64,000 nucleotides of DNA from an uncultured Fidelibacterota bacterium (GTDB taxonomy: Bacteria; Fidelibacterota; Marinisomatia; Marinisomatales; UBA8229). Positions 9,089 through 11,692 of this stretch are shown in pieces. Below the pieces are notes generated by a model that was not told the origin of the DNA, did no database searches, and saw only the letters and a program-made list of their open reading frames with translations. Each line of letters starts with the position of its first letter. Position 1 is the stretch's first letter. Where the stretch lies: contig CAJWIT010000001.1 of assembly GCA_913041945.1 (NCBI GenBank), positions 1-64,000 of the forward strand. The letters are read 5' to 3'. The position numbers and the translations under genes are program-made.

Positions 9089-10021
9089 ATGAACAAAACA
9101 AATCTGGAAAAACGAATCTATAACGCTCAATGCTATGGCAATATTGAACCCATTGAATACATGGTGCCATACCCGAATCTCCATGCTCTCGTGGAGGGAC
9201 AAAATGTAAAATATAAAGATCATCTTCTGTATCATGACTTGAGTATGACAAATGAGGATTTTTTCATTCGGGTTCAGAAAACCGCCCATTGGCTGAAAGC
9301 CTCAGGTGTCCGTCCAAAAGACAGAGTGATGATGGCTGGACTTCCCTTTCCAACTGCGGAAATTATTGCTTTTGGTATCTGGACGATGGGCGCAACCCTT
9401 GTACTTACCGCACAAAATGATCTCAAAACAGCAAGAACAGCCTGCCAACCAATTTTTATAGTTCAGCCTGAATTAGATCTGGAAAAGGAAATTGATGTTT
9501 TTGATGAACAATTTATACCAGCTTTTAAACCCAATCTCCATGAAGAGGCAGCAATCTATTGGAAAGACGGAAAAGCCATTCGGCTCAGTCATTATAACCT
9601 GCTGGTAAATGCAAATGGAATCCAAAAAATACTCGATTTATTTGAGCAGGATACTTTTTTGATTCAACTGAAAGCGGAATCAACCGCCTGGGTTGTTCTT
9701 CAGGCAATTCTCCCATTATACACTGGGGCAGGAATTACTTCAAAAAATCCGAAAATTACCATCAGTCTTCCAACTCAATTTGATTCAGCAGATTATATTG
9801 TTGATTTTGACTGGACTGAATTAAAAACCACAACCCCACTCCATCTATATATAAAACCTGAGAACACGGCTGTTCTCGCGATAGGTTCCTCACCGGTTCA
9901 TATGACTGCTATTGAGAAAGATAATCAGCATCTAAAAATATCTGGACACTCTGTTATGATGGGATACCTCAATGATAAAAACAACCAAAAAATATTTATT
10001 AAAGGAAAAATGAATATCTAA
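9089..10021 (+). CDS. Shortened ANL-superfamily (AMP-binding/acyl-CoA synthetase-like) protein lacking P-loop and C-terminal subdomain
   Basis: N-terminal AMP-binding-like layout (VRPKDRVMMAGLPFPTAEIIAFGIWTMGATLVL), LSHYNLLVNANGI after where the TSGTTG P-loop should be, ISGHSVMMGYLND near C-terminus. Confidence 0.55.
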   Translation: MNKTNLEKRIYNAQCYGNIEPIEYMVPYPNLHALVEGQNVKYKDHLLYHDLSMTNEDFFIRVQKTAHWLKASGVRPKDRVMMAGLPFPTAEIIAFGIWTMGATLVLTAQNDLKTARTACQPIFIVQPELDLEKEIDVFDEQFIPAFKPNLHEEAAIYWKDGKAIRLSHYNLLVNANGIQKILDLFEQDTFLIQLKAESTAWVVLQAILPLYTGAGITSKNPKITISLPTQFDSADYIVDFDWTELKTTTPLHLYIKPENTAVLAIGSSPVHMTAIEKDNQHLKISGHSVMMGYLNDKNNQKIFIKGKMNI

Positions 10022-10070: not shown

Positions 10071-10526
10071 TCAGTCCAGATCTGAAAGAATATCCTTCGC
10101 ATGAGTTTTTGTTTTTACTTTTGAATATACCCTCTCAATAGTGCCATTTTCATCAATAAGATAAGAATATCTGAAAATTCCTTCATATTCCCTCCCCATA
10201 AATTTTTTCGGTCCCCAGGCACCGTATGCCTTGATGGTTTCTTTTGAAGGGTCGCTGAGCAGTGAGAAAGGAAATTCCTGTTTGTCACAAAAAGACTTCT
10301 GAGCTTTCACAGAATCTGCACTCATACCAAGAATCACCACATTGTTATCCTGAAATTTTTGGAACTCATCACGGAGCCCCTGTCCTTGGACCGTTCATCC
10401 AGGGGTGCTTGCTTTTGGAAAAAACCAAAGCAGCACTTTTTTCCCTTTTAAACTTTCGAGAGATATAAGATCTCCATCCTGATTCATCGACGAAAATTCC
10501 GGCGCAGTATCACCAACTTTTAACAT
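10071..10526 (-). CDS. BCP/PrxQ-type peroxiredoxin, predicted selenoprotein (UGA at 10395..10397 read as Sec)
   Basis: Translation from ATG at 10524..10526: MLKVGDTAPEFSSMNQDGDLISLESLKGKKVLLWFFPKASTPG(U)TVQGQGLRDEFQKFQDNNVVILGMSADSVKAQKSFCDKQEFPFSLLSDPSKETIKAYGAWGPKKFMGREYEGIFRYSYLIDENGTIERVYSKVKTKTHAKDILSDLD. Same frame on both sides of UGA; matches BCP PKxxTPGCTVQxxGLRD. Confidence 0.85.
10361..10380 (-). promoter_or_regulatory. Candidate bacterial SECIS element
   Basis: RNA after UGA: ACGGUCCAAGGACA-GGGGCUC-CGUGAU-GAGUUCC; 7-bp stem (two G-U pairs), 6-nt loop starting 21 nt after UGA with G at loop position 2. Confidence 0.55.
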
Positions 10527-10567
10527 AATTTCCTCCAGTTTTTGTTTTGAACACTTTCATAAAGTTT

Positions 10568-11692
10568 CTACTCATCATCCCATTTTCTCAAAAATGATTT
10601 TGACCATTTGAAAAATTCACCACATTCTATTTTTGATCGGATCGTTTTCATTAATTTCATATAAAAAGCAATATTCAAGGCGCTGGAAATCCGCACTCCA
10701 AGGATCTCATTCACATTAAACAAATGCCGGACGTATGCTTTTGAGAACTGAGCTCCAAAAGGCGAACTACTTATTGCATCAATGGGACTGAAATCCGATT
10801 TATATTTACTGTTTTTAATATTAATAATTCCCTCATCTGTGAAAATATGCCCGTTTCTCCCATTCCGTGTAGGGATGACACAATCGAACATATCCATTCC
10901 CATTGCTACTGCATTCACAATATCTGCCGGTTTACCCACACCCATCAAATACCTAGGTTGGTCAATCGGTAAATGTTCATCACATAAACTGACCATTTCC
11001 AACATGGCAGATTTATCTTCACCTACTGCCAAACCTCCAATTGCCATACCGCATGAAGCAAGGGCGACTAATTCATCTAAACTTTGTTTTCTCAGTTCTG
11101 GATAAATATTCCCCTGTACTATAGGAAAAAATATTTGGTCCCACTCAAAATGGGAAGGATTTTCATCAAGATATTGAACACAGGATTTTGCCCACATGGT
11201 TGTTCTTTTAACAGACTGGCCCACTGTTTTTTTATCACTTTTTCCCGGAGGACATTCATCGAAAGCCATAATGATATCTGCACCTAAATTCCGCTGGATA
11301 CTCATGGATTTTTCCGGAGTGAAAAAATGTTTACTCCCGTCTATATGAGATTGAAACTCCACTCCTTCATCCGAAATTTTATTCAATCGTGCTAAAGAAA
11401 ATACTTGAAATCCACCACTGTCTGTTAACATCGGTCCTTTCCAGCTTGAAAAGGAATGAAGCCCTCCGGCATCCTTTACTATATCATCTCCCGGTTTTAG
11501 GTAAAGGTGATACGTATTCCCCAATATTATTTCTGTATCAAGAGATGTTAATTCTTGTGGTGTAAAAGTTTTAACCGTTCCCAATGTCCCCACAGGCATG
11601 AAAACCGGTGTGTGGATGATGCCATGATGAGTGTCTAACAATCCCGTCCTGGCTGAAGTTTCTTTGTCAGAATGTAAAAGAGTAAATTGCAA
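10568..11692 (-). CDS. tgt: Queuine tRNA-ribosyltransferase
   Basis: HTPVFMPVGTLGTVK, LTDSGGFQVFSLA, GGLAVGE, MGVGKPADI, FDCVIPTRNGRNG. Confidence 0.95.
   Translation of the reverse strand: MQFTLLHSDKETSARTGLLDTHHGIIHTPVFMPVGTLGTVKTFTPQELTSLDTEIILGNTYHLYLKPGDDIVKDAGGLHSFSSWKGPMLTDSGGFQVFSLARLNKISDEGVEFQSHIDGSKHFFTPEKSMSIQRNLGADIIMAFDECPPGKSDKKTVGQSVKRTTMWAKSCVQYLDENPSHFEWDQIFFPIVQGNIYPELRKQSLDELVALASCGMAIGGLAVGEDKSAMLEMVSLCDEHLPIDQPRYLMGVGKPADIVNAVAMGMDMFDCVIPTRNGRNGHIFTDEGIINIKNSKYKSDFSPIDAISSSPFGAQFSKAYVRHLFNVNEILGVRISSALNIAFYMKLMKTIRSKIECGEFFKWSKSFLRKWDDE

Follow-up and report, generated by a model that had tools for sequence, protein, structure and literature searches.

COG1225, which we take to be the Bcp group, has members that carry selenocysteine (Sec). 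These Sec peroxiredoxins (COG1225/PF00578, TxxU motif) were described from marine metagenomes, with 43 sequences from the Sargasso Sea (2005) and 253 from GOS (2008) (PMC1088965, PMC2398784), i.e., they were already a known class, as the original prediction for the locus studied here had said. Another Sec peroxiredoxin, PrxU of Eubacterium acidaminophilum, is represented by the model NF040737. Our literature search on selenocysteine in Marinimicrobia and on selenoproteins in SAR406 found no paper on the enzyme studied here for the marine phylum concerned (Neomarinimicrobiota); a table of PMC5029168 names three SAR406 single-cell genomes.

We studied a peroxiredoxin (Prx) gene that is interrupted by one in-frame TGA. 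It is located in a stretch of 64,000 nt from an uncultured bacterium of this phylum (called the window in the following). The relevant features are:

10071..10526, minus strand: predicted Sec-containing BCP/PrxQ peroxiredoxin gene, 151 aa, ATG start, TGA stop at 10073..10071
10395..10397, minus strand: in-frame UGA, predicted Sec44 codon at the peroxidatic position (PKASTPG-U), from translation, relatives and alignment
10361..10380, minus strand: SECIS-like hairpin GGGGCUC, loop CGUGAU, GAGUUCC, from folding, conservation and covariation
10287..10289, minus strand: Cys80 codon, candidate alpha3 resolving cysteine, from the alignment with Xanthomonas campestris PrxQ (XcPrxQ)
10531..10536, minus strand: Shine-Dalgarno GGAGGA before the ATG; relatives have similar sites
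10568..11692, minus strand: tgt (queuine tRNA-ribosyltransferase), the upstream neighbour, ending 41 nt before the Prx ATG

Reading frame, family and fold

The original prediction was that of a complete 151-residue frame with a single TGA, of which the ORF track holds only the C-terminal 89 aa. Translation of the minus strand agrees: the read-through product is MLKVGDTAPEF...FFPKASTPG*TVQGQGLRDEF...ILSDLD*, with the sole internal TGA at 10397..10395, and the mechanical ORF list contains only the 89-aa piece (10071..10340). Among the frames of the whole window that are broken by a single TGA and have room on both sides, only the Prx frame resembles a split gene. Of the remaining two, one is a stop with the ATG of the next gene directly behind it, and the other a gene with a run of 52 codons after it. 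The tgt gene is found upstream of the Prx gene at other loci of the phylum, too. Convergent with the Prx gene lies a frame for a 310-aa protein (9089-10021, plus strand) with a partial AMP-binding match over residues 46-106; its product looks like a shortened acyl-CoA-synthetase-like protein.

The existence of an ORF with a GTG start at 10340 would also fit the production of two polypeptides, i.e., an N-terminal peptide of 43 aa and a C-terminal protein of 89 aa made by re-initiation. Against this, the GTG is located inside the fold and past the active-site helix, neither the catalytic residue nor the first strands are part of the C-terminal piece, and the residues between the TGA and the GTG are conserved at the protein level. 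We thus rejected re-initiation, to which we give next to no credence, and treat the frame as one gene.

For the read-through protein, the thioredoxin-dependent thiol peroxidase model of NCBIfam (NF006960, cut-off 140) gives 181 bits, and PF00578 gives 118 bits. With the PrxU model NF040737, only 38 bits are reached (cut-off 270), which places the protein in a different subfamily. The motif Pxxx(T/S)xxC is present as P37-K-A-S-T41-P-G-U44, where 59 homologs show no variation at T41, G43 and position 44 (Sec or Cys, both treated as Cys). The AlphaFold model (pLDDT 97.5) has the PrxQ fold, and the best solved matches from Foldseek are BCP/PrxQ structures including XcPrxQ, with TM scores up to 0.95. 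On its sequence, we therefore assign the protein to the BCP/PrxQ peroxiredoxins, with a predicted thioredoxin-dependent peroxidase activity.

Sec machinery and the downstream hairpin

The genome of the window comprises 1.83 Mb in 119 contigs and is 87% complete. The original prediction had proposed to search it for selA, selB, selD and a tRNA-Sec with UCA anticodon, and to align the protein with Cys-containing BCP/PrxQ. All four genes are present: tRNA-Sec with 63.3 bits (gathering threshold 47; anticodon TCA), selB with 354.6 bits (cut-off 242), selA with 509.7 bits, adjoining selB on contig 5, and selD with 387 bits and an in-frame TGA of its own. In the alignment, the UGA codon is found opposite Cys.

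These results also bear on a genome-wide reassignment of UGA (to Trp or Gly) or a read-through without selenium, for which we found no support. As had been argued beforehand, TGA is a normal stop in the window: it terminates 13 of the 50 main ORFs as well as the Prx gene itself. Furthermore, a tRNA-Sec with UCA anticodon exists, and residue 44 of relatives without the TGA is Cys, not Trp or Gly. We consequently rejected recoding, whose probability we consider negligible, and keep the reading of this UGA as a Sec codon.

Further candidate selenoprotein genes are found in the same genome. In selD (L096/L189, contig 17), the motif GSGUACK is followed by a strong GGUCC-GGA-GGACC hairpin. Two targeted searches of the genome identified two more TGA-interrupted genes. 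The first (L192; contig 25, 17187-17627, minus strand) encodes a second PrxQ/BCP paralog with the TGA at the peroxidatic position and Cys at +5 (GTPGU-IKEAC), and adjoins an msrB-like frame. Across the phylum, this second PrxQ has Sec in many genomes and Cys in others. The second (L199; contig 43, 8705-8923, plus strand) encodes a SelW-like 82-aa protein with a CNAU (TGA) motif. With the Prx gene, this brings the candidate selenoproteins of the genome to at least four. A copy of its second PrxQ with 99% identity occurs in a genome of another family (G158, contig 18, 3348-3788), where contig 18 is probably a contaminating contig of that MAG.

The hairpin of the window gene starts 14 nt past the UGA (UGA+15..+34) and has 7 bp and a 6-nt apical loop with a conserved G. 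Considered alone, it is not unusually stable (z-scores of -0.8 and -1.3 against dinucleotide shuffles), such that folding of the window sequence was undecided and we took conservation as basis. The hairpin is found with 6-7 of its 7 pairs in 63/65 Sec genes, while in the Cys set it has largely decayed, most of all in the family f9. The apical loop follows CG[G/U]GA[U/C] in all 65 sequences counted, and the stem occupies columns 18-24/31-37.

For the covariation analysis, L132 and L143, the two Sec genes lacking the hairpin, were left out. In the resulting Sec-gene alignment, 95.2% of the pair cells are paired, and five of the seven pairs show changes on both sides. The covariation score is 0.351 compared to 0.210+-0.014 for shuffled data (0/500 as high), a comparison that we did not use alone since the shuffles ignore relatedness. 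When the pairing partner is slid by one to three bases, the covariation is at most 0.20. Shuffling of synonymous codons yields a mean z of -1.43 for 66 Sec genes versus -0.43 for 22 Cys genes, which is a modest gap with wide scatter.

Codon usage points to the same region. Phe51 is encoded by TTC in 47/47 cases, although TTT is preferred elsewhere in these genes (395:176), and for Arg52 only CGG or CGT are used (68/68), even though AGA and CGG are equally frequent elsewhere. Synonymous sites are near saturation between most of these genomes, so this uniformity needs a reason; the codons in question fall in the apical loop and the upper stem. The coupling of Leu51/Phe51 with GAG/GAA (Fisher test, 1e-14) traces back to about 1-2 independent events on the tree, such that its p-value is overstated and we do not count it as independent evidence.

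Sec and Cys forms in the phylum

We surveyed 245 genomes of the phylum, with E <= 1e-15 as homolog threshold. A homolog of the Prx gene is found in 194 of them, and in 101 genomes the gene contains exactly one TGA. All 68 Sec genes that were inspected base by base have it at residue 44. A TGA-less ortholog is present in 19 genomes of the same class.

We also compared the window gene with its nearest relatives (L100 and L101, respectively) separately for both sides of the UGA. The dN/dS values are 0.12 and 0.18 before and 0.13 and 0.09 after the UGA, i.e., purifying selection acts on either half. Such equal constraint is expected if the downstream part is made and used as a protein. In favor of a pseudogene, i.e., a BCP with a nonsense mutation or a one-base sequencing error, only the splitting of the gene by standard gene finding can be cited. 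This reading is contradicted by the TGA itself, shared at this codon by 68 inspected genes and present once in the gene of 101 genomes, by dN/dS of about 0.1 on both sides, and by the conserved hairpin and the presence of the Sec machinery. Given the conserved TGA and the selection on both sides, we rejected pseudogene and sequencing error, the chance of which we regard as vanishingly small.

In 97 of the 101 TGA genomes, selA or tRNA-Sec was detected. The four with neither at the thresholds used are G098, G132, G133 and G168, where G132 and G133 are only 55-60% complete. Among the Cys genomes of the class, 14 have neither selA nor tRNA-Sec; all belong to f9 and are 0.7-1.0 Mb in size. Five Cys genomes outside f9 (G033, G115, G116, G122, G123) still have Sec machinery, therefore reversion occurs also where Sec decoding is kept. 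The association between Sec/Cys state and machinery (Fisher test, 4e-11) is phylogenetically clumped, i.e., the machinery-less Cys genomes are this one family.

Taken together, the machinery, the conserved TGA and hairpin, the selection on both halves of an intact gene, the fold, and Cys homologs where the machinery is gone leave us in hardly any doubt that the window gene is an intact selenoprotein gene encoding a BCP/PrxQ with Sec at the peroxidatic residue 44, as originally predicted. It is a clean case, from a marine phylum that is mostly uncultured, of a selenoprotein gene that standard annotation splits or labels a pseudogene.

On the tree, many branches of which are weakly supported, six Sec/Cys changes are needed, and starred branches force at least four of these. 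Outside the phylum, nearly all related loci are Cys forms; the sole Sec example is L062. These data would fit a history in which Sec arose once at the base of the class, reverted to Cys four times (f9; L120/L187; L124/L188; L174) and was gained separately in L062, where parsimony counts alone cannot separate gain from loss. The Sec form extends through most of the class, and reversion to Cys seems to have occurred about four times, one case being the streamlined genomes that lost the machinery.

Two of these loci deserve description. L062 (3001-3450, a Verrucomicrobiota ETNP MAG) is a BCP with the TGA at the same position and with Cys49 retained, and seems to represent a separate acquisition of Sec outside Neomarinimicrobiota. 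L174 (G033) is a Cys form without Cys49 and without Cys80, in a genome that keeps selA and tRNA-Sec; it would thus be a Sec-to-Cys reversion without any resolving Cys.

With its Sec forms and apparent reversions, the class lends itself to asking at what point selenium in a peroxidase repays its cost, and also whether a resolving cysteine must precede giving up Sec.

Resolving cysteine and comparison with known systems

In the phmmer alignment, residues 19-149 of the window protein match residues 23-153 of XcPrxQ without gaps, such that Sec44 corresponds to C48 and Cys80 to C84. PDB entry titles that name C48S and C84S mutants mark both as the studied cysteines of XcPrxQ, whose established resolving Cys is C84. 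Cys80 is the only Cys of the window protein and located 36 residues after Sec44, i.e., the spacing is that of the alpha3 type (C48/C84). At the position of the alpha2 (E. coli) type, five residues after the peroxidatic one, the protein has Gln49. The Gln at this site was correctly noted in the original prediction, while its conclusion that the enzyme would be 1-Sec, drawn from this Gln alone, is not supported for the window protein given the alignment of Cys80 with C84.

Among the 68 Sec forms of the tree set, Cys80 is present in 26, Cys49 in 4 and neither in 38, and several contain no further Cys. The family can therefore function without a resolving Cys, and 1-Sec and Sec/Cys forms probably both exist in it. 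BCPs with about 38 residues between both Cys have been described (PMC8945050), and 1-Cys BCPs reduced directly by thioredoxin (Trx) or by GSH/glutaredoxin (Grx) are known (PMC8945050, citing Clarke 2010). A true 1-Sec enzyme, in which thioredoxin, glutaredoxin or a small thiol directly reduces the Sec-OH and Cys80 is unused, is accordingly a serious possibility for the window protein as well, if not the one we would expect. It has to be weighed against the exact location of the sole Cys at the alpha3 resolving position of PrxQ and the retention of Cys80 in 15/16 Cys forms of the class. Since the sole Cys is at the C84 position, we consider a Sec44-Cys80 selenenylsulfide at least as likely, and lean towards Cys80 as the candidate residue that resolves the selenenic intermediate.

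For a mechanism with Cys80 as resolving residue, decoding efficiency, peroxidase activity, Cys80 resolution and the electron donor of the window enzyme are what we infer. UGA codon 44 would be decoded as Sec by SelB/tRNA-Sec, steered by the putative in-gene bacterial SECIS hairpin just downstream. Sec44 would then attack H2O2 or alkyl hydroperoxides, yielding a selenenic acid that Cys80 would probably resolve to a selenenylsulfide, the bond of which would be reduced by thioredoxin in an XcPrxQ-like manner. In relatives without a second Cys, an external thiol or thioredoxin would have to reduce the selenenic acid directly.

For the class, one could envisage that a swap from Cys to Sec went along with the loss of the alpha2 Cys49 (1-Sec stage), that some lineages gained Cys80, and that Sec was replaced by Cys from there. 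We regard this order of events as rather doubtful, and for the idea that Cys80 came before reversion, about four reversions are too few as a test. If true, the staged history would provide a visible route of selenoenzyme gain and loss, with the window protein as the Sec44-Cys80 form of the intermediate stage.

Compared to X. campestris PrxQ/BCP (PDB 5iiz, 3gkn; C48/C84), the window protein has the same fold (TM about 0.9), the same peroxidatic position and the same resolving Cys spacing of +36, but Sec in place of the peroxidatic Cys. With E. coli BCP, it shares the PK-xx-TPG-[C/U] motif and the overall fold, while E. coli BCP has a peroxidatic Cys and its resolving Cys at +5, where the window protein has Sec44 and Gln49. 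PrxU of E. acidaminophilum is likewise a Sec peroxiredoxin, of another subfamily. The Sec peroxiredoxins from marine metagenomes agree with it in COG group, TxxU motif (here T41-P-G-U44), peroxidatic UGA and downstream SECIS. The kind of enzyme is not new, its family being known since 2005. Those metagenome proteins are unassigned sequences, likened here by their description, while the window gene can be assigned to a class of Neomarinimicrobiota genomes and is known together with its machinery, the covariation of its hairpin and its history. What is added is a class-wide lineage with at least four Sec-to-Cys reversions and the loss of the usual resolving Cys.
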